Source: an uncultured Candidatus Saccharibacteria bacterium
GTDB lineage: Bacteria; Patescibacteriota; Saccharimonadia; Saccharimonadales; CAIOMD01
Direction: 5' to 3'
DNA length: 34,098 bases
Assembly (NCBI GenBank): GCA_903859365.1
Contig: CAIOMD010000012.1
Span: 1-34,098, forward strand
Each line of letters begins with the position of its first letter. Position 1 is the stretch's first letter. The notes under the pieces are model-generated. The model saw nothing but the letters and a program-made list of their open reading frames with translations. It was not told the origin of the DNA and did not search any database. Below are positions 224 to 17,772 of the stretch, piece after piece. A program made the position numbers and the translations under genes.

Positions 224-994
224 TTAATAATAGCCAGTGGCAATAAGTGTGTGGCTAAAGTTGTAAAATCCAGACGGGGTCGTGTTACTTATATTAAATA
301 TATACGTGACTGTATATGTGGTGTAGCCCGAGCTACTGGCTGATTGCGCTATTATGTCACCTTGCACATATTTATATAGGTTTGACGTGTTATATCCTGT
401 TGCCGCAGTTCCATAGCTGTAAGTGCTTGATGGAAGTTGCTGAGGATTAGACCCTATTGTTGAAGGACTTGTATTGGCTACTAAATTTATACCGAACTGC
501 TCAGTGCCTATTGTTGAAGCGGTCGGAGTGGAGGGTGTAGTTAAATAGTGTGTTATTCCGTTAGATACAGCACTTGGGGCAGGAGATCCATTTATGACAG
601 TGTAGCCACTAGCAAGATATGCCCTGACGCTAAATTGGGCTGTGGTTGATGCAGTGGATGATGAGGATAAAACTCCGACGTTTGTAACAGAATTAGGGGT
701 GACTAGTTCAATATATGGATCCGCCGTTGTTGTGTACCCACCATATGCCTGATAGTTGGCGCTACTGCTATTACCTATACCCGTATCTCCAAGGCTTGCA
801 TTAAGGCAATAATTAGTCGAGCACGCATTCACTACACCTCCTGGACTTACTGATGATTCAGTCACACAGTTTATGCTGCCACAGGAAGTCGTAGTCGCCT
901 TTACTAAGCCAGTAAAGAGCATAGGTACAGAAAAGAAAAGTAAAAAAGATAGATACCAAATTATTCTCTTCAATCTAATTATATTTATCCCCAT
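224..994 (-). CDS. Secreted hypothetical protein (signal peptide, Ser/Thr-rich beta-type sequence)
   Basis: ORF of 256 aa. N-terminal IIRLKRIIWYLSFLLFFSVPMLFTGLVKA looks like a signal peptide, followed by a Ser/Thr/Gly-rich extracellular composition. Confidence 0.75.
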   Translation of the reverse strand: MGINIIRLKRIIWYLSFLLFFSVPMLFTGLVKATTTSCGSINCVTESSVSPGGVVNACSTNYCLNASLGDTGIGNSSSANYQAYGGYTTTADPYIELVTPNSVTNVGVLSSSSTASTTAQFSVRAYLASGYTVINGSPAPSAVSNGITHYLTTPSTPTASTIGTEQFGINLVANTSPSTIGSNPQQLPSSTYSYGTAATGYNTSNLYKYVQGDIIAQSASSSGYTTYTVTYIFNISNTTPSGFYNFSHTLIATGYY

Positions 995-1104: not shown

Positions 1105-2133
1105 ATGGAAGATAATAATAAAATAACAGAAAATGAAGAGAACTCTCTTGAAACTCCAGAGACACAATTAAATTCGCAAGAATCCCTCGACCCCACAACT
1201 TCTCCGCAACCCATAATTGATGGGCCTGGTGTATCAAGTTCAAAACCAGAAAGTACCGCAAGTGATGCTATAGAAAAACCGAAAAAATCGTTGCCTCAAA
1301 AGATAAAAAAACTCATTTCTAACATTAATATCTACCTTCTGCTCTTTCTACTATTATTAGTAGTGTCTGGTATAGCAGGATTTGCTAGTTACAGGTCAAG
1401 CAAAAGCCAAGCAAAACAAAGCAATATCTTCAATCAAACTTTGAGTGCACAAGATTTGCAAAATCTTAAAAATAACAATGCGACAGTAGGAGATTCATCG
1501 CAAGTATTAACAGTGGCATCGAATTCTATATTTAATGGTCAGGTACTGGTTAAAAATGATCTTAATGTTGCGGGTTCCATACGTGTTGGGGGTGCACTAA
1601 ATTTACCTGGTATAACAGTTTCAGGAACATCTAACTTTCAAAATGTTCAAGTGGCAAGCACACTGAATGTAGCGGGTGATTCTGGAGTACAAGGTACGTT
1701 AACAGTACAAAAAAATCTTTCAGTTTCGGGCTCGGCCACATTCGGCGGTACTATTTCTACACCTGCACTTAATGTTGGTCAATTGACGCTAAGCAATGAT
1801 TTACAGATTAATCGTCATATTACGGTCGGTGGACCTTCTCCTCGTGCGTCAAATGGCTCTAATATTGGATCAGGAGGCACGGTTTCAATAAATGGTTCAG
1901 ATACTTCTGGCACTGTTAATATAAACTTCGGCAATAACCCTTCTGCAGGATATTTTGTAAATGTTGTATTCGCGAACACCTTCACGCAAACCCCTCATGT
2001 AGTTATTAGTCCCAATGCGTCTTCTTGTGCTTCAATTGGTTATTATGTGACGCGAAGTACAACAGGATTTTCTATTGGAGCAAACAGCCCCTCAAGTGGT
2101 ACGTGCTCGTTTGATTACATCATCATGGACTAG
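1105..2133 (+). CDS. Membrane-anchored fibre/adhesin-like surface protein
   Basis: ORF of 342 aa: acidic cytoplasmic N-terminus, one TM (YLLLFLLLLVVSGIAGFASY), repeated short beta segments (DLNVAGSIRVGG / TLNVAGDSGVQGTLTV / NLSVSGSATFGGTI) and a C-terminal beta domain. Confidence 0.75.
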   Translation: MEDNNKITENEENSLETPETQLNSQESLDPTTSPQPIIDGPGVSSSKPESTASDAIEKPKKSLPQKIKKLISNINIYLLLFLLLLVVSGIAGFASYRSSKSQAKQSNIFNQTLSAQDLQNLKNNNATVGDSSQVLTVASNSIFNGQVLVKNDLNVAGSIRVGGALNLPGITVSGTSNFQNVQVASTLNVAGDSGVQGTLTVQKNLSVSGSATFGGTISTPALNVGQLTLSNDLQINRHITVGGPSPRASNGSNIGSGGTVSINGSDTSGTVNINFGNNPSAGYFVNVVFANTFTQTPHVVISPNASSCASIGYYVTRSTTGFSIGANSPSSGTCSFDYIIMD

Positions 2134-2441: not shown

Positions 2442-4590
<2,149 letters not shown>

Positions 4591-4594
<4 letters not shown>

Positions 4595-6024
4595 TTTTTT
4601 ACCCCCACAAGAATTTTATCTTTTAGCTGCTTTTTAAGTTCATCAAAGTTTGAATTCTTCTCATCTTCCTTGAGAAGTTTTGCATATTCTGGGACAAATG
4701 TTTTTAAAGCATTCACATCAACTGACTCTTGGTCTGAAAGTTCAAGAATAATCTCAAACATTAGTTGTTGAGCGGCCAAGGTAAATGATTCTGAAGGTTT
4801 TTGATTAAATAACTCTACGATTCTTTTTCCAAGAATTAAATCTTTTTGGCCTTCGAGCGCTAGTTCTGATCCAAAACGAGTATACTCTGCTGATTGGCGA
4901 TATGCTGCCAAAGCTTTAAGTGTTTTTGCTGCTATAGCTTTTTGTCTTTTATTGTGTCCTACGCCACCTACACGAGTCACCGAAAGACCATTGTTAAGCC
5001 CGGGTCTGGTACCCTCTCTAAAAATATTTAAATCTAGGATCCATTGACCATCTGTTATAGACATAATATTCGTAGGAAGATATGCTGTTATATCACCGCC
5101 ACTAGCAAGCACTACCGGTAAACAGGTCAATGTTTTAGCATTCGTAGATAATCTTCCTGCTCTCTCGAGTAAACTACTATGAGCATAGAACATATCACCA
5201 GGATAAGAGTCTCTGCCTGGGCTCTTACCACTTAATAAGGAGATTTCTCTATAGGCCATCGCATGAGTAGTTAGGTCATCATAGATTATGACTGCATCTC
5301 TACCAAGATTAATCCAAAAATGTTCTGCAATCGCACAAGCAACATATGGAGCGAGGTAACTCAAAACTAAGGAATCGAACATTGTTGAAACTATAACGAT
5401 AGTGTTTTTGAGCGCCCCACTTTCGCTTAGGTTCGTCAGCAATGAATCAACATCAGCCTTTCTTTTTCCAATAAGAACATAGATAACAACTCTGTCTGTA
5501 TTCTTTTGATTAACCGCTATTTGTGTCATGATTGTCGATTTACCTGACTTACTATCACCCAATATCGCCATACGCTGGCCTTGGGCAATAGGAAATAATG
5601 TATCGATGACCGTCACTCCAGTCTCTAGTTGATCGGATAATTGTTTACGAATATAGAGCGGGGGAGCTTCATTGAAAACGATACCAGTAGTTTCCGCGGC
5701 TATCGGCCCCTTGCCATCAAGAGGTGCTCCAAGTACATTAACAACCCTACCGATGAATTCATTACCCACTTTAGTGATTAGGTCTTTATTTTGTTCAACT
5801 ACTCCAATGCCCGTACTGAGCTCATGTTCACCTAAGTGTAATACGGTTACATGATCTTCATAAATATAATGGACGATTCCTTTGGAACCATCTTCGAACA
5901 TGACTAAGGTGTGTTGTGTCGTCGGTTGAAGACCACGTACTTTTATCATAAATTTATTAACACCGATTACTTCTCCGACCGGATGTTTAGCTTCTACAAG
6001 ACTTTGAAAGTGTTTATTATTCAC
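4591..6024 (-). CDS. atpA: F1 ATPase alpha-like subunit
   Basis: 477 aa: [14 protein letters not shown]-loop [42 protein letters not shown] (arginine-finger region kept). Confidence 0.93.
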
Positions 6025-6496
6025 CTCTTAGTGCCTTTACTAAATCTTTCTGACTATTTTGAAGGTGCTTTCTTAGGGAAAAATCGTATTGTGTTCTATT
6101 AGTGCGAAGCACGGCCCCAACTGAAATCGTAGGCTGAATACCAATGTTCAGAAGAATTTTCGGATCTACTTCTTTTCTAAACCAAGCGATAAGTTTCTGA
6201 TTCACATCATCGGATGGTTCTGTGGCAAAACTCATATGAAAAAGAATTACTTGCTTAAGGGTTTTTTCCAATTGTTTTATGAGTTTTTTGGGAACATTTT
6301 TTTCGTTAAGATTAATTTGATTAAGTTGTACTAAATCCTTAAGCCCAGCAGATAGAGGAATTGGTGATTGAGTTGCTGTTTTACGAACATTATTTTGAAC
6401 AACCAATACATCATAATCTCTAACTTCTCTTTGTATTCTGAGAATATCCTGTTTTGTTGCAATGGTCATTGGCATCTTAAGCTCCATTTTTAACAT
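6017..6496 (-). CDS. atpH: ATP synthase delta-like subunit
   Basis: 159 aa between b-like and alpha. C-terminal [36 protein letters not shown] matches the delta/OSCP C-terminal pattern. Overlaps the end of the b-like gene. Confidence 0.7.
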
Positions 6497-7100
6497 CCTC
6501 CAGAATTGCCTTTTTATTCTCCTCTAAGCTCTGGAAGATATACTCAAGTTGATCAGTGAGATCAATCTCTCCGCCAATCGCATCAAGGATATAGTGATTA
6601 AGGATGTCGGCCATATTTTTCTCAAACCGATCAATAAGGCGCTGTTTTTCTTCAGCTGCTTGGTCATTCATTTGTTGTTCAAGTTGCGTTCTTTGTTGAT
6701 CAATGACTTCTTGGGTCTTTTTTATAGATTCTAGCGCTATATCTCGTGCACTCGTTATGGATGCTTCATATTTGGAAAATTCATCTTTAAGCACTTTTTG
6801 AATCTCATCCTTCATAAAAGTGTTGAGTTCGCTAGTCGTCAATCGAAGATCTTGTTGCAAAAATAGAGCATTCTCGCTTATAACTTTTTCAAAATGTAGC
6901 CTACCTCTATTTCTTAGTTCTTCTCTAAAACTATCGTTAAAAACTTCCATTGACTTCTTTTCGGCAATTGCAGCCAAATCGATATCTGGGCTAGCTGATG
7001 TAGCTTTATTTTTTTTCGGACGAGGCCATAACAGATAAAGTAGAATTGACAGAATGGCAGCACTGATTCCTATTCCAAACGCTACCTGATACGAACTCAT
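6477..7100 (-). CDS. atpF: ATP synthase b-like stator subunit
   Basis: One N-terminal TM (VAFGIGISAAILSILLYLLW) then a long charged coiled coil; position directly upstream of delta. Confidence 0.7.
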   Translation of the reverse strand: MSSYQVAFGIGISAAILSILLYLLWPRPKKNKATSASPDIDLAAIAEKKSMEVFNDSFREELRNRGRLHFEKVISENALFLQQDLRLTTSELNTFMKDEIQKVLKDEFSKYEASITSARDIALESIKKTQEVIDQQRTQLEQQMNDQAAEEKQRLIDRFEKNMADILNHYILDAIGGEIDLTDQLEYIFQSLEENKKAILEDVKNGA

Positions 7101-7122: not shown

Positions 7123-7956
7123 TTAAAGCTTTAGTAATAAGTATACGCCAAAAACACCACTCAGAAAAACTAATAAACTTATGATTACAATTTGCACTAG
7201 ACTCTTGGTAATTATTTTTTTACTTAAAGGGTTTCTTCCAATTGAAATAATGCTACTACGAACGCCTCCATAAATGAGACTTCCGGATACGAATGCTGTT
7301 ATAGCAAGTACTAAAATACTGATATAAACTCTCACTGGAGAAACTATTTTACCAGCAACCAGATTACTTGCCCGAGATAATATGCTCGGTAGACTATTGT
7401 CGGTAATCAGCAATGGATTCTTACCTATCGCTATATCTACAGTCACATACCCAATATGTAGCGTAGATGTTTTTCCTGTAGAGTCTTTAACGGTAACAGT
7501 TCCTATCTGTTGAGCACTATCGTTTGCATTGAATGTACTTATCGACTTACCTACCACCAGAGGGTCTGTCGGTGTTGCCTTGTCACCAATTCCCGTAACT
7601 GCAGATAAAGCGACGAAGTCTCCGGGACTAATAGTACCGTTTTGATCATTCACCATGACGCTTACTCTCCCCGATGTGCTTACGTACACGTTTGTGCTAG
7701 CGTTACCAATCAAAATTGTTGAACTACTGGGATTAACAACGACTCCATGAAGAAGGTTGTATTGCGACGAATTAATTGGCTCAACTTTAGTTACATCTTT
7801 TGGATCTAGTCCAACAATCATTCCATTTTGTAATAGCGTGTCCGATTTGTAACCTTGCGTTACACTTTGCGCTGATGCGATACAATTAAAAACCAAAAAA
7901 ACCGCAATAGCGGACTCAAGCGTGATCAATATTTTTTTAAAATTATACATAGTCAT
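7123..7956 (-). CDS. Secreted beta-domain protein with C-terminal c-subunit-like transmembrane hairpin (ORF extends to 8070; ATG at 7956 or 7950 preferred)
   Basis: Signal-peptide-like N-terminus (MTMYNFKKILITLESAIAVFLVFNCIASAQS). Extracytoplasmic domain with VYVSTSGRVSVMVNDQNGTISPGDFVALSAVTGIGDKAT...VVGKSI, the pattern of tail-fibre/Peptidase_G2-type domains. C-terminus: two TMs joined by GGVRSSIISIGRNPLSKKIITK. Confidence 0.7.
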   Translation of the reverse strand: MTMYNFKKILITLESAIAVFLVFNCIASAQSVTQGYKSDTLLQNGMIVGLDPKDVTKVEPINSSQYNLLHGVVVNPSSSTILIGNASTNVYVSTSGRVSVMVNDQNGTISPGDFVALSAVTGIGDKATPTDPLVVGKSISTFNANDSAQQIGTVTVKDSTGKTSTLHIGYVTVDIAIGKNPLLITDNSLPSILSRASNLVAGKIVSPVRVYISILVLAITAFVSGSLIYGGVRSSIISIGRNPLSKKIITKSLVQIVIISLLVFLSGVFGVYLLLKL

Positions 7957-7996
7957 CGGAGTAATATGTCTCTGATAATTAGTATAGCGCTTTTGC

Positions 7997-9154
7997 TTAT
8001 TTTTTAGGTATATTTTGAATAATACTATCCACGAGTTCCTGCATCGCTTTGTACTCGGTGTATTTACCAATAGTTATTCTGATACTACTTCTTGCCTGTT
8101 CATCATTTAAGCCGATAGCTTTTAGTACATGAGAAGGCTCATCATTACTTGCATTACATGCTGAGCCTGAAGCAACCATAAAACCTGATTCATCGAGTTC
8201 CATAAGTAATCGTTCGTTATCGATGCCATTAATAGTGATGTGAACATTATTAGCGATACGCTTTTTTTCCTTAGGGCCATTTAAGCTACACCCAGGAATT
8301 CTTTGCAACAGCTCATCAATAAGCTTGTTTCGGAGTTGAGTAACTCTATCGGCTTCTTGTTGGTAGTTACTCCGCACCTCATCCCAACTGACACCAAATG
8401 CAACAATTGCGGAAATATTTTCTGTACCACTTCGCAAGTTTAATTCTTGGCCACCTCCTAGTAGTAATGGACTAATGGTAACCCCAGTTTTTACAAACAA
8501 CGCCCCGCACTGCTTTGGGCCATACATCTTACCTGCATTGATGCTTAATAAATCTACTCCTAGTCTAGATACTTGAAGATCCAAATAGTTAGTTGCTTGG
8601 CAGGCATCTGTATGAAAATAAAGAGGGTAATTATTGCCTTCCTCTTTTCTTTTTTTTCTCATTTCTTCAACAAACCTACTTATTTCATAAATGGGCTGAA
8701 TAGTGCCAATTTCATTATTTGCATACATCACGCTTATGAGCACAGTTGTAGGTTTAATTATTTTCTTAATAGCTTCAACTGACACAAATCCACTTGAGTC
8801 CACTTGAATAATCGAATGGTTGTATTTTTGGGCTGGCGCCAACACTGAATCATGCTCGATTGTCGATGCTATCATATGACCATCAGGAAATTTCTGCATT
8901 ACTCCATGAATAGCCAGATTATTTGCTTCTGTCCCACCTGCCGTAAAAATAACTTCGAGTGGCTTAGCACCAATACCTTTAGCGATTTTTTGACGCACTG
9001 CTTCAATGGCATGTTTATTTTTCTTTGCGGAAAGGTAAAGCGCAGAAGCATTAAAGAATTCTTCACTTAAATAAGGTATCATAGCCTCCACAGCTTTAGG
9101 TAACATTGGGGTCGCCGCGGCATAATCGAAATAGCCATATAATTTTCTATTCAT
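7997..9154 (-). CDS. iscS: Cysteine desulfurase (NifS/IscS family)
   Basis: DYAAATPMLPKA, TAGGTEANNLAIHG, HTDACQA, SINAGKMYGPKQCGALFVK, GSACNASNDEPSHVLKAIG. Confidence 0.93.
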   Translation of the reverse strand: MNRKLYGYFDYAAATPMLPKAVEAMIPYLSEEFFNASALYLSAKKNKHAIEAVRQKIAKGIGAKPLEVIFTAGGTEANNLAIHGVMQKFPDGHMIASTIEHDSVLAPAQKYNHSIIQVDSSGFVSVEAIKKIIKPTTVLISVMYANNEIGTIQPIYEISRFVEEMRKKRKEEGNNYPLYFHTDACQATNYLDLQVSRLGVDLLSINAGKMYGPKQCGALFVKTGVTISPLLLGGGQELNLRSGTENISAIVAFGVSWDEVRSNYQQEADRVTQLRNKLIDELLQRIPGCSLNGPKEKKRIANNVHITINGIDNERLLMELDESGFMVASGSACNASNDEPSHVLKAIGLNDEQARSSIRITIGKYTEYKAMQELVDSIIQNIPKK

Positions 9155-12129: not shown

Positions 12130-12300
12130 TTAATTATCTTCATAATTTGATGCTAAATGCCAAAGATTGCAATGCTTGCATTTGTAAACTTTTAATTTTG
12201 TTCCGTGTTGATGTTGAGCAACGGTGGCTGCTGTTGCTGCTTGTTTTTGAGTATCAAAAGAAAGTTTCTCACTACATGGCAACAAATTTGACTCATCCAT
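12130..12300 (-). CDS. Small zinc-ribbon-like protein (56 aa), not in the supplied ORF track
   Basis: Manual translation: MDESNLLPCSEKLSFDTQKQAATAATVAQHQHGTKLKVYKCKHCNLWHLASNYEDN*. CxxC-x2-WH motif. ATG overlaps the upstream FKBP stop (TAATG). Confidence 0.75.
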   Translation of the reverse strand: MDESNLLPCSEKLSFDTQKQAATAATVAQHQHGTKLKVYKCKHCNLWHLASNYEDN

Positions 12301-12935
12301 TATTGGCTCGCTACTAAAGTTACTACAAATACAAGTGTTGAATTAGCCGGGATCGAACCCTGCGCCTTAGATCCATAACCTACGGCGGGTGGGACAATTA
12401 TTAGTCGTTTTCCACCCACCTTCATTCCCGCAACCCCTTCCTCCATCCCAGGTATTACTTCATGGGCACCCTCAGTGAATAAAAATGGCTGTTGATTCCC
12501 GTTCGTATCCTTTTTAGTTTGATCAAAAAGAGTTCCGTTCGTTAGCCAGCCAGAATAATATATTGCAACCTTAGATCCCGCGGCAACAGCAGTACCCGTC
12601 CCTGTACTAATGTCCCCAAATAACGAATGAGCATTGCCACTATATTTTTCATATTGGATAAATGTCGTAGGATCTATTTGGTTTTGCTGGGTGCTAGCAC
12701 TTGTTTGGTTACCAGTGAGTTGAGCAACAGGATCTGATACAACATTTACTGTTTGTTGATTAGTGCTATCAACACTAATGGGTGCTGGCGTCGATTGCGT
12801 AACAGCTGCTTGTGGCCGATTAACGGTAACTAATCTCGGTTTAGCACGGTTATTAGAATTAATTAAAAATCCTAGTACTGAAGCGAGCACAACCAAGCAA
12901 CAACCGGCGATGAGCCATAAAGCTCTTTTACTCAT
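12300..12935 (-). CDS. Membrane-anchored/secreted FKBP-type peptidyl-prolyl isomerase
   Basis: N-terminal TM, then VAIYYSGWLTNGTLFDQT...PFLFTEGAHEVIPGMEEGVAGMKVGGKRLIIVPPAVGYG...IPANSTLVFVVTL. Confidence 0.93.
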   Translation of the reverse strand: MSKRALWLIAGCCLVVLASVLGFLINSNNRAKPRLVTVNRPQAAVTQSTPAPISVDSTNQQTVNVVSDPVAQLTGNQTSASTQQNQIDPTTFIQYEKYSGNAHSLFGDISTGTGTAVAAGSKVAIYYSGWLTNGTLFDQTKKDTNGNQQPFLFTEGAHEVIPGMEEGVAGMKVGGKRLIIVPPAVGYGSKAQGSIPANSTLVFVVTLVASQ

Positions 12936-14190
12936 AGCGAAGTGATTCTATTGGATCTACTTGGCTTGCTTTAAATGCCGGTAACAGGCCTGCGATCCAA
13001 GTAATTACCGAGATTACAACAATAATAAATATAATCAACGATGGACGAATATTAAGAAGCTGAATGCCGTCCACTCCCTTGAGGAATGTCTCAGCAGCAA
13101 TTTGATTGATAGCAATTTGGGCGAGAAAAGCGAAGAAAATTCCAATGATACCTCCCCAAAAACCTAGTAGTGCAGCTTCAACACTAAAAAGATAAAAGAT
13201 TGTTCTCTTTTTTGAACCTAGAGCCCTAAAGAGTCCAATTTCTCTTGTCCTTTCAAGCACTGCCATAAATAATGTATTTATAACTCCAACGATAGATGCA
13301 AGAATCGCAATTCCACTGAAGGCTGCGAGTGAAATCTGAACACCAGTAATGATATTGTTGAGGGTATTATTAATGTCTGCGAAGCTTCTGCCGGTAAACT
13401 TGGCATTCGAAAGATTTGCTTTGAGCTGCACATCAGTTATGTCGCTTGATTTAGAAATAAAAACAAAGTTAAAAAGCGGAGAACTTCCCGGAGCCTGCTC
13501 TGTTGCGATCTTTTCAGCATCTTGGCTATTTATAAAAATAGGTGCCTGTATAAGTGAGGGCTCGTAAACACCTTTTACTTTAAAAATTATAGTCGACACC
13601 ACCCCTTTAGCATTCTTGTAAGTAAGAAAAAGGCTCTTTCCTAATGCGCTCGAAATATCATTGGCTCCAACGAGCGGCAAGTATTTTTGTGAAAGCAGTA
13701 CAGAACCTGGATCAACTGAGTCCAGTGTCTTTCCTGCTACAAGATTAAGAGGATTTTTTGATAAAAATGTACTATTGGATGCTTCATACTTTGTTCCATT
13801 TGGCGAAGTTGCATAATCAAATACGACAGCATAAGGAAGTTCCAGATTTTGAACGCCTTTGACTTTTTTAATTTGGTCTATATCTGCAGAAGAAAGAAAA
13901 TTATTCTGATAATTAGCACTCGACGGAGATTTGTTAGGATTGTAAACAATAGGATCATGGTTACCCAGTCCACTAAAATTATTTAAAGTCGTCTTCTCTA
14001 CTTGATATAAATTAACCCCCTTGTATTGGCCAAGTTCTGAAGAAATATAATTTCGCAACCCCTGTCCCAGTCCTAAACTTAGCGCCAGCGTAAAGGTACC
14101 GATGCTAATTGCTAAAAGAGTCAAGAAAGTTCTAAGCTTAGAACGCCTTAAATTGCTATTTGAAGTTTTAATGATATCAATAAATTTCAT
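12928..14190 (-). CDS. ABC transporter permease (MacB/FtsX-like)
   Basis: Four TM segments, periplasmic domain after TM1, C-terminal SVITWIAGLLPAFKASQVDPIESLRYE. Confidence 0.9.
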   Translation of the reverse strand: MKFIDIIKTSNSNLRRSKLRTFLTLLAISIGTFTLALSLGLGQGLRNYISSELGQYKGVNLYQVEKTTLNNFSGLGNHDPIVYNPNKSPSSANYQNNFLSSADIDQIKKVKGVQNLELPYAVVFDYATSPNGTKYEASNSTFLSKNPLNLVAGKTLDSVDPGSVLLSQKYLPLVGANDISSALGKSLFLTYKNAKGVVSTIIFKVKGVYEPSLIQAPIFINSQDAEKIATEQAPGSSPLFNFVFISKSSDITDVQLKANLSNAKFTGRSFADINNTLNNIITGVQISLAAFSGIAILASIVGVINTLFMAVLERTREIGLFRALGSKKRTIFYLFSVEAALLGFWGGIIGIFFAFLAQIAINQIAAETFLKGVDGIQLLNIRPSLIIFIIVVISVITWIAGLLPAFKASQVDPIESLRYE

Positions 14191-14870
14191 TATTTTTTAC
14201 TCGAATTCGTATCATTTTCAATCTTACCGTCCTTGAGATAAACAACTCGTTCACATCGCTTTGCTAGGTCAGTATCATGGGTCACAATAACTAATGTTGT
14301 TCCCAGTTTTTTCTGCAATTCAAATAGTAATTTTTCAATTGCATCTCCATTTTCGGTATCAAGATTTCCAGTTGGTTCATCAGCAATCAGAATTGAAGGA
14401 TTATCAACAAGCGCTCTTGCAATAGCAACCCTTTGTTTTTGTCCACCAGACAAATCATTTGCTTTTGACTTAATTCTATCCTCAAGTCCCACCTTTTTTA
14501 ACGCTTCTGTGGCCTTAAGATTTCGTTTTTTACGCGTAAACCCCTGGAGCTTGAGGGGTAATGCCACATTATCTAATACAGAATCATTTGGTTGCAGAAA
14601 AAACTGTTGAAACACTATCCCAACATTCTTACCTCGCCAGGAATCTGTATTCATATCTTTTAAGATATTTTTTCCATTGTAGAGTACTTCACCATTCGTT
14701 GGATGATCTAAGCCAATTAGGATATGCAATAAAGTACTTTTTCCCGAACCACTTTTCCCAACAATGGCGTTTGAGGTGCCTTTTTTAAATTTGAGGGATA
14801 TTCCAGTAAGCGCACTGAATGCTTTATCCTTTTTACCATAAATTTTATTAACGTTTACTACATCTAGCAT
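14190..14870 (-). CDS. ABC transporter ATP-binding protein (LolD/MacB-like)
   Basis: GKSGSGKSTLLHILIG, LSGGQKQRVAIARALVDNPSILIADEPTGNLD, H-loop VTHDTDLAKRCERVVYLKDG. Confidence 0.95.
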   Translation of the reverse strand: MLDVVNVNKIYGKKDKAFSALTGISLKFKKGTSNAIVGKSGSGKSTLLHILIGLDHPTNGEVLYNGKNILKDMNTDSWRGKNVGIVFQQFFLQPNDSVLDNVALPLKLQGFTRKKRNLKATEALKKVGLEDRIKSKANDLSGGQKQRVAIARALVDNPSILIADEPTGNLDTENGDAIEKLLFELQKKLGTTLVIVTHDTDLAKRCERVVYLKDGKIENDTNSSKK

Positions 14871-14918
14871 AATTTTTCTCTCTAAATTAGTATAGTCTCT
14901 TTAGTCTAAATGAGCTAG

Positions 14919-17216
14919 TTAAAAAGGATTGTTTGGATTAATTGTTGACTTGTTGTCGCCCTGAGCAGGAGAATCATCCGGAACAATAACATCCTGAGGG
15001 CTAGGAGATGTTTGCTGTGGTACTACTTGAGTGGTCGGCATAACTTGGTTTGCAGTAGGTTGCACGAATTGAGGAGCAGAACCCGCAACCATGGGGCTTA
15101 TTGCTCCACTCGCTACATGTTGATTGTACAAATCGTGTTTTTTCTTGTGATTTCTGATTACAAAAATCATGACAACAGCTCCAGCAACGACTATAACAAG
15201 CCCGATGGTTAACACGATAATTGTCGGAAAACTTTTGATATCGTGTCCCTGTTGAATTTGAGAATTCGCATTTGCGATGAAAGCTGCCACTGTAGGATGT
15301 GCCGGATAAAGAGTTTTAACTTGATTGAAGTACTTTAATGACTCTGAGTAATGAGATTTATTAAATAATTCAATGGCTTTTTGCCACGCAACTTGTGTTT
15401 TTGAAGTTGTATTGAAATTAACGTTATTTTTGTTTGCAAGTGAAATTAAATCACCAATATCACGAACATAATTAAAAGTTGCATCACTTGTGCTTGCACC
15501 ATTTACAGTATAGGTGGCAATCCCTACGACACTTCCATTATCATCAATTGCTGGGCCACCACTATTTCCATGACCGATGACAGTATCAGTTTCTATAAGC
15601 TTATTCCCATTTCCTGCTGCATTTTTTATCGATGCGACCGTGCCACTTGTCAGACTAACAACTCCATCAGAATTAACTAACCCATTAGAGCTAGCCTGTC
15701 CAGGGAAGCCCAGAATATTAAGGTTTGCACCTTGCATGACGTCATTTATCGTTCCAAGCTTAACTACTGGGTAATCTGATCCGTCTATTTTCAAAAGTGC
15801 TACGTCAGACTTAACGAAACCGTTAACGCCATCTGCTGCTCTATAATCCATGGCAGAAACTTTAGCATGTAAGATAGTATCTTGCTGTGGGTAAGAGGTT
15901 AGGTTCTGGGTATCATCTATGAGTTCTGAAGGATCTGGCTGCTTTGTTCCTAGCGCTACAACGAGATTACTTACATTATTAGAAACGCTAAAGTCGCTGT
16001 CCGGTATTTTATAAAGGTCATCAATGAGTATGCCTAAATTCTTTTCATTTGAGTTATTTGATGGAAGGTCAGCTTGTGTCACTCCCGCGATGTTAGCTAG
16101 AAACTGAATATAGCTAAAATCATTATTAGTAACCGCATTATTTAGTGCGTCCATGATGACATCATCTTTGGGATTTGAGCTTACGACGTGTCCGTTGGAG
16201 GCAATAATTCCATCACTGCTAACGAAAAAGCCTGTGCCGCTGACACCCCCATTACAATCTGAAGTCAGATACATCTTTCCCTGTATAGAAACATCCTGGC
16301 AATAAACATTGTATATTTTAACGACAGCAGGGCTGTAAAGAGAACTAATGTTTTCGGAAGCAGGAGTAGAAGTATTATTTGAAGCGGCAAACGCAAGGTT
16401 TGCAAAAAGAAGACTGTCAAACCATGTTTTATGTGCCTTCGCCGCTCCAGAAACATTAGTTGGTAGCAGTGACACTGTCTTCGAATTAAAATTCATAGAG
16501 TTCAAAACATCCAAGTATGCATCAATTGATGTACTGCTTGTTGTCTGAGAAATAGAAATAGTATATGCTTTACCATTTACTTTTCCGCAATAGGTAGTTA
16601 GTACTGGATTTAGAACTTTGGAAAGCAACTGATTTGTTTGATTTTGATGCCACACAGATTTTATAAATGTGTTACCGCCGATTTGAACAGTTGAAGTACT
16701 ACTTAATATCTCACCTTTATAACTTCCTGAAGACATAAAATTTGATTCTATTTGATTCAGCGTTTCATCCGGATTAGCTAATACCGCTGCCTTTAAAGTC
16801 ATCTGGCTAGTTGATGATTTACCATTCACCCACGATGAAGACAGCCTAACTTCTTGATATTGCCTCGTAGTTGATAGCTCATCACCTATATACAGATTAC
16901 CGTTTGCAGAGTCATATGCACTTGCATAGAGCTTGTTAGTATCATACGTAAAGGTAAATCCATAGGTTGAAGATACGTTCTTTGTTGTGGAGGTATTTGT
17001 GTTAAAAAGATGACTTATGAACGTTCTTGCTTCTAGGGTACTGTTATAGACTTGGTCGTTATATTGCACCAAAAGAACCAATAAAATAACTGCAGCCACA
17101 AATAAGCCAAAAAAAGAACCATAATGTCTTTTTCTGTATGGTTTTGCATGATGATGAGTTAACTTTACTTGTTTTTTATGATTTACGCTCTTCTTGACCT
17201 TCAATTTTTGTTTCAT
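14919..17216 (-). CDS. Double-TM-anchored trypsin-like serine protease with TPR-like segment and Pro/Gln-rich tail
   Basis: His in IASNGHVVSS, Asp in VKSDVALLKID, Ser in GHGNSGGPAID. TPR-like AIELFNKSHYSESLKYFNQVKTLYP. C-terminal TM and QPTANQVMPTTQVVPQQTSPSPQ tail. Confidence 0.88.
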   Translation of the reverse strand: MKQKLKVKKSVNHKKQVKLTHHHAKPYRKRHYGSFFGLFVAAVILLVLLVQYNDQVYNSTLEARTFISHLFNTNTSTTKNVSSTYGFTFTYDTNKLYASAYDSANGNLYIGDELSTTRQYQEVRLSSSWVNGKSSTSQMTLKAAVLANPDETLNQIESNFMSSGSYKGEILSSTSTVQIGGNTFIKSVWHQNQTNQLLSKVLNPVLTTYCGKVNGKAYTISISQTTSSTSIDAYLDVLNSMNFNSKTVSLLPTNVSGAAKAHKTWFDSLLFANLAFAASNNTSTPASENISSLYSPAVVKIYNVYCQDVSIQGKMYLTSDCNGGVSGTGFFVSSDGIIASNGHVVSSNPKDDVIMDALNNAVTNNDFSYIQFLANIAGVTQADLPSNNSNEKNLGILIDDLYKIPDSDFSVSNNVSNLVVALGTKQPDPSELIDDTQNLTSYPQQDTILHAKVSAMDYRAADGVNGFVKSDVALLKIDGSDYPVVKLGTINDVMQGANLNILGFPGQASSNGLVNSDGVVSLTSGTVASIKNAAGNGNKLIETDTVIGHGNSGGPAIDDNGSVVGIATYTVNGASTSDATFNYVRDIGDLISLANKNNVNFNTTSKTQVAWQKAIELFNKSHYSESLKYFNQVKTLYPAHPTVAAFIANANSQIQQGHDIKSFPTIIVLTIGLVIVVAGAVVMIFVIRNHKKKHDLYNQHVASGAISPMVAGSAPQFVQPTANQVMPTTQVVPQQTSPSPQDVIVPDDSPAQGDNKSTINPNNPF

Positions 17217-17385: not shown

Positions 17386-17772
17386 TGGTGGAGCTGGCGG
17401 GTAATGCTCCCGCGTCCGCGGAACGACTTAGTTATCGTACTACAAGTTTAGTTTGCTTGTATTTCTTAGCTATAGAACGGTTAAACAAACCAAACGTTCC
17501 ATAGAGCAGGATGAAAATCTTAGCAGCAAAGCTCATACGGTACCTTGCTGAGCGTCCAGATGATATAAGACGTTAACTCTCTATCTGAAGTCAAATGTTA
17601 ACATCGCTAAAGCGATTAGGCTAAAGCTGGCGCAAATTGGCGAACGGCTAACGCACGATCAACCATTTTGCTTAAAGATGTTTTTGCATCTATTTAGGTT
17701 TGCCCTATAACGGTGAGCAACCGACTTGCACGAATAACTTGTCAATGTTCTACGTCGAGCTAAATCAGCCCC
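17386..17772 (-). ncRNA. ssrA: Transfer-messenger RNA (tmRNA)
   Basis: 5' GGGGCUGAUUUAGCUCGACG pairs with 3' CAGCUCC-ACCA over 7 bp. Internal open tag reading frame ending ...VRQFAPALA-UAA. About 387 nt. Confidence 0.92.

Follow-up and report, generated by a model that had tools for sequence, protein, structure and literature searches.

Rotary ATPases are textbook ion machines. In the window, the whole 34,098-nucleotide stretch of Candidatus Saccharibacteria DNA analysed here, an F1 operon is headed by a gene for a putative secreted protein, P, with a hairpin like that of subunit c. The locus raises the question of what work such an F1 could do, and on which side of the membrane.

The P protein

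The P open reading frame spans positions 7123–8070 on the minus strand. Translation likely starts at 7956 (MTMYNFKK...), giving 277 residues. The C-terminus quoted in the original prediction was found letter for letter, with the coordinates as given, on the minus strand. Kyte–Doolittle hydropathy peaks at residues 9–27, within a signal peptide that ends in CIASA ahead of QSV. Two C-terminal transmembrane helices, at about residues 210–228 and 256–274, surround the loop SIGRNPLSKK. Across 109 distinct P hairpins, this loop carries 4.2 K/R compared with 0.35 D/E. A positive loop is consistent with a cytoplasmic location and with both termini outside, as in subunit c. Thus, the F0 c topology that had been proposed agrees with the loop charge and with the two hydrophobic peaks.

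Other scans of P were less informative. A Pfam scan of the window protein gave no ATP-synt_C match, and its sole match, to IncD, was judged meaningless. The AlphaFold monomer, built from two sequences, had a mean pLDDT of 36.5 and was left out of the fold search. Promoter and terminator scans returned chance-level results. Features are collected in Table 1.

Table 1. Features of the P locus and the adjoining second F1 operon
Feature	Position	Strand	Basis
P, chimeric: signal peptide, extracellular beta domain and ion-inert c-like transmembrane hairpin (277 aa)	7123..7956	-	sequence, homologue search, hydropathy
P signal peptide (MTMYNFKKILITLESAIAVFLVFNCIASA, followed by QSV)	7870..7956	-	sequence; hydropathy
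P extracellular beta domain, module common to large surface proteins	7342..7869	-	sequence searches
P hairpin transmembrane helix 1 (approximate)	7261..7329	-	hydropathy; low-confidence AF2 helix
P GRNP loop motif, the c-subunit cytoplasmic loop signature	7228..7239	-	motif/profile comparison
P transmembrane helix 2	7132..7218	-	hydropathy, c alignment
P leucine at P+18, the place of the c ion-binding carboxylate	nt 7174-7176	-	c comparison
b-like subunit (one N-terminal transmembrane helix and coiled coil), 22 bp after P	6477..7100	-	translation, gene order
delta/OSCP subunit	6017..6496	-	PF00213
alpha subunit, second F1	4591..6024	-	Pfam; alignment to canonical
gamma subunit, second F1	3743..4594	-	Pfam
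beta subunit, second F1, catalytic residues intact	2442..3746	-	Pfam; alignment to canonical
epsilon subunit, beta-sandwich domain only, 102 aa	2130..2438	-	Pfam
tmF, transmembrane-anchored bactofilin-like surface fibre protein, convergent with epsilon; conserved neighbour	1105..2133	+	sequence, neighbour clustering
Secreted protein (cluster 7), conserved in the vicinity at 19 loci; uncertain member of the system	224..994	-	neighbour clustering

P heads a second, divergent F1 operon

P is the first gene of an operon with the order P-b-delta-alpha-gamma-beta-epsilon, in which it occupies the atpE slot. The genes upstream of P encode cysteine desulfurase, tatD and metG. The genome that contains the window is 716 kb and 99.9% complete; being so small, and judging by the genes present, it probably belongs to Saccharibacteria (Patescibacteria). 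On another of its contigs is a canonical F1Fo operon, with both subunit a (PF00119, E 2e-44) and subunit c (PF00137, E 7.5e-13). Hence, the F1 in the window is additional, and the idea that P belongs to the only F1Fo of this genome was ruled out. The two F1 sets have diverged, as originally proposed; identity to the canonical counterpart is 43% for beta, 38% for alpha and 22% for gamma. In alignments to the canonical proteins, the second F1 keeps the P-loop, catalytic Glu, Walker B Asp and alpha Arg finger. Catalysis by the second F1 is therefore plausible from its sequence.

A quick beta tree, in which several branches are long, places the 19 canonical sequences together. A branch of length 1.03 (SH-aLRT 100) sets them apart from the other 82. 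On both the canonical and the P-linked side, sequences group broadly by taxonomy. This is as expected of an old duplication.

Two further observations concern the rest of the window. A tmRNA at 17386–17772 (minus strand) was detected by Rfam (90.9 bits) and missed by ARAGORN. By eye, 12300–17216 (minus strand) encodes, in a row, a putative FKBP-type isomerase, a MacB-like ABC transporter pair and a large membrane-anchored trypsin-like protease.

The P hairpin is related to subunit c

The original prediction held that the P hairpin resembles ATP-synt_C. For the window protein alone this did not stand, while a profile drawn from the whole phylum bore it out. Briefly, a profile of Saccharibacterial P hairpins scored 25.8 against subunit c in hhalign, compared with a permutation maximum of 20.1. 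Once GRNP was masked, the similarity was at background level. Because Saccharibacterial P resembles c only through GRNP, we widened the comparison to the phylum. Judged from sequence, P hairpins of other classes are less derived than the Saccharibacterial ones; aligned with each other by hhalign, the two sets match at 98.5%.

A phylum-wide profile of 20 P hairpins (A3) was searched against 177635 PDB sequences. With matches counted at E up to 10, all 15 were ATP synthase c subunits (best E 1.7e-5). The full-length P profile found no match in the PDB. Over 8414 local open reading frames, canonical c was the top match of a hairpin profile of this kind outside the P family (best 3.5e-7). In hhalign, the phylum-wide hairpin aligns to c at 94.9% over 46 columns, covering the loop and helix 2. 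Masking GRNP left the same register, with a score of 17.3 that exceeded 120/120 column permutations (maximum 14.4). Three P hairpins are also picked up by PF00137 itself, with sub-threshold matches (E 0.0045, 0.037 and 0.059). From these profiles we conclude that the P hairpin is homologous to subunit c.

GRNP is invariant in 66/66 intact Saccharibacterial homologues of P. Across the 109 motif-bearing P sequences, 101 have GRNP and the rest SRNP, IRNP, GRTP or GSNP. Helix 1 is a point of difference; it contains 2.7 Gly per 28 residues in P versus 6.5 in c, and the c-type Gly-rich packing motif is missing. Hence, a ring of P would pack differently, or P may possibly form none.

P hairpins lack the ion-binding carboxylate

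Most canonical c subunits have their carboxylate at P+18, counted from the loop proline. In P homologues this position is almost always hydrophobic. Furthermore, none of the 109 distinct homologues has Asp or Glu anywhere from P+13 to P+26. All 28 canonical c subunits that we sampled within this group carry a carboxylate at P+17 or P+18. The absence of Glu or Asp at the ion-binding position of helix 2, noticed in the window protein, thus extends to all 109 homologues. By these comparisons the P hairpin is ion-inert. Two features of subunit c, the ion site and the glycine-rich helix 1, are missing from P, and we therefore prefer to describe P as a c-derived rotor candidate within a new variant of F1-Xo ATPase.

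Some carriers of P-F1 have no a or c

We checked 35 genomes for a and c, namely 31 with P next to or near a second F1 and four comparison genomes. In 12 genomes with P-F1, neither a nor c was found above the cut-off. The same 12 contain no F-type alpha or beta beyond the P-linked set or sets. Several of them (G433, G397, G550 and G520) are single contigs. The other carriers checked mostly retain both the canonical and the P-linked machine. Among the conserved neighbours of P, in about 80 loci, there is no a-like gene. Without a or c, P-F1 in the 12 carriers cannot be an ATP synthase or ion pump of known kind.

P and the second F1 usually occur together

Homologues of P are present in all 6 genomes of the family and, within the order, in 174 of 295. 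Full-length homologues occur in many other families of the phylum. The fetched loci contain 84 P genes. Alpha or beta lies within 8 kb of 67 of these, 11 are too near contig ends to classify and six are orphans, which have no F1 nearby even though the flanks extend at least 5 kb on both sides. The expectation that P stays with F1 genes thus applies to 67/84 copies and fails for the six orphans. P copies away from F1 at L068, L071 and L201–L204 lie beside surface proteins of about 900–2700 residues, and L068 has tandem P genes. The clusters L169–L172 (family f114) have two P paralogues, one convergent with epsilon, with the loop variants SRNP and IRNP.

Over the 295 genomes, 160 have both P and the second beta, 14 have P only, 15 have beta only and 106 have neither (odds ratio about 81). 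The association is strong but not the invariant one that had been anticipated, since 15 of 175 genomes with a second F1 gave no P match. Most of these still gave none by profile search. The second-F1 operons at L111–L127 have no P at the locus, and most such genomes are also without P by profile. In those genomes the F1 must sit on something else, or on membrane parts that are independent of P. In the beta tree, operons without P are nested within the P-linked clade in several places. This suggests repeated loss or relocation of P.

The ectodomain of P and its neighbours point to the cell surface

The N-terminal region of P had been described as a fibre-type domain. Our searches identify it instead as a beta domain common to large surface proteins. 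It has weak Pfam similarity to phage cement and minor-capsid proteins; six members of the A1 set match the minor capsid family XM1_gp53 (best 3.9e-6) and one matches Phage_cement. Hence, the ectodomain may be a phage-cement-like barrel. By BLAST and genome search, the P-type beta segment is also present in surface proteins. A P beta-domain HMM run over the neighbouring genes gave no non-P match at E 1e-3. Elsewhere in the genome of the window, L008:308-5953 (G000:C8) encodes a surface protein of at least 1881 residues. In this protein, a P-like beta segment precedes a C-terminus like that of tmF (E 1e-6 and 9e-10). The presence of both types in one protein hints that the ectodomains of P and tmF belong together.

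Clustering of flanking genes identified transmembrane-anchored, fibre-type surface proteins as the one recurrent theme besides F1 subunits and housekeeping genes. Of these, tmF-like proteins account for 32 Saccharibacterial loci. At 18 of the distant loci there are giant repeat proteins, which range from 363 to more than 2500 residues and are often cut by the fetched end. A fibre-type surface protein lies within 1.5 kb of 42/59 P-F1 clusters, and the same families occur once in 211 kb further away; this enrichment is partly circular, because the families were defined from P neighbourhoods. The C-terminus of tmF is H-lectin-like, and tmF adjoins the second F1 in many genomes. The secreted protein at 224..994 has 41% identity to L055:752-1501, and its family is sometimes found in tandem copies.

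A candidate rotary motor with an extracellular output

The core of the original prediction, a c-like protein without its carboxylate that carries an ectodomain and serves a divergent F1, is well supported by sequence homology, gene position and distribution. From this we propose that the locus encodes a second rotary ATPase, F1-Xo, with a membrane rotor of P in place of subunit c. Briefly, P would be a c homologue that lost its carboxylate and gained a secreted N-terminal domain. Several hairpins would assemble into a c-like ring, and their cytoplasmic GRNP loops would bind gamma and epsilon. The beta domains would form a crown outside the membrane, with b and delta as the stator. Hydrolysis of ATP by F1 would then turn or strain the ring. 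With neither an a subunit nor an ion site, the complex cannot use hydrolysis to pump ions; the output would be mechanical and outside the cell. The most likely load is the surface-fibre proteins encoded beside P-F1. The ring itself, docking to gamma and epsilon, rotation, and contact between crown and fibres as output are the steps that we infer. Overall, we give a probability of roughly 0.6 to an ATP-hydrolysing rotary motor with an ion-inert, c-like P ring and an extracellular crown acting on surface fibres.

The main rival to a rotary P ring is that P is a static anchor derived from c. The F1 would then be an ATPase tethered to the membrane that assembles, exports or resets surface proteins, a role already proposed for F1-like X0 and MIB-MIP in Mycoplasma, with no net rotation of a crown. 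The missing a subunit and ion site suit such an arrangement, as does the link between P and large surface proteins. Furthermore, MIB-MIP cannot function on the Mycoplasma cell surface without the Type 3 F1-like X0 ATPase (PMC12994834). However, the operons keep b, delta, gamma and epsilon, hence stator and rotor shaft, as well as GRNP, and a mere anchor needs none of these. We consider a static anchor unlikely, though a serious competitor.

Alternatively, the second F1 could borrow the canonical a and c of its genome, and P would be an accessory or regulatory subunit of hybrid complexes. The window genome does contain canonical a and c, and second-F1 operons without P exist. Nevertheless, such borrowing is refuted for the 12 carriers with no a and no c above the cut-off, including the single-contig genomes, and P, a homologue of c, already occupies the slot of c. 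Hence, hybrid complexes are very unlikely. Least probable of all is that the hairpin is an unrelated two-helix anchor in which GRNP arose by convergence. For Saccharibacterial P alone, masking of GRNP does abolish all similarity to c, but the phylum-wide profile matches c subunits exclusively in the PDB, and that similarity outlasts the mask in register.

If the rotary reading of P-F1 is correct, its reach could be wide. We tentatively suggest, with rather less confidence than for the motor itself, that P-F1 is an ancient, phylum-wide Patescibacterial rotary ATPase decoupled from ions. The c-ring would have become a transmembrane drive shaft with a crown, working fibres for host attachment or movement. 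Much that has been recorded as incomplete ATP synthase would then be the P-F1 machine. P-F1 thus offers an explanation for Patescibacterial genomes with F1 genes but no a or c. The source bacterium is probably a Patescibacterial epibiont, and for epibionts P-F1 would be a specific candidate as the source of ATP-powered surface activity. Cultured, genetically tractable Saccharibacteria exist, so P-F1 can be tested. In Southlakia epibionticum, all ATP synthase components are dispensable (PMC10633639). P-F1 may help to explain this, if the strain carries P.

Comparison with known systems

We found no description of a second F1 in Saccharibacteria or CPR in a literature search that most subscription journals lay outside. 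F-type subunit c (PF00137) shares with P the two-helix hairpin, cytoplasmic GRNP loop and external N- and C-termini. The gene slot before b-delta-alpha-gamma-beta-epsilon is also the same, and profile similarity covers the loop and helix 2. Conversely, P has no carboxylate, few helix-1 glycines and no partner a subunit, and is fused to a signal peptide and an extracellular domain of about 175 residues. Both the P-type beta segment and the tmF-type C-terminal domain recur in large Patescibacterial surface fibre proteins, which differ from P in having no hairpin and no F1.

Subunits c without a carboxylate have been described before. ProAD lists 20 F/N-ATPases with c/K subunits that lack the ion-binding Glu/Asp, classed as non-catalytic (PMC11738941). 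These cases differ from P in being isolated and in sets containing a and c, with no fused ectodomain described in the passage concerned (PMC11738941).

By layout, the nearest analogues of P-F1 are the F1-like X0 ATPases of Mycoplasma. Type 2 acts in gliding and Type 3 is needed for MIB-MIP antibody cleavage (PMC3369863, PMC12994834, PMC8406192, PMC11864180). Their membrane protein (Protein 5) combines a signal peptide and a large ectodomain with two C-terminal transmembrane helices (PMC3369863, PMC12994834). Its similarity to P is at the level of this layout. In both systems, a second F1 that lacks a and c accompanies a canonical F1Fo; both are tied to surface machinery and both belong to genome-reduced, host-dependent bacteria. 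Unlike P-F1, the Mycoplasma clusters contain a 12-transmembrane protein (Protein 1) and a small extra protein, and no b; no 12-transmembrane protein occurs among the conserved neighbours of P in about 80 loci. P-F1, in turn, retains both b and delta, and its c homologue can be recognised as such. P-F1 would be a second evolutionary case, after the mycoplasmas, of an F1 reused for extracellular work, and one in which the stator is intact and the c-type rotor can still be recognised.
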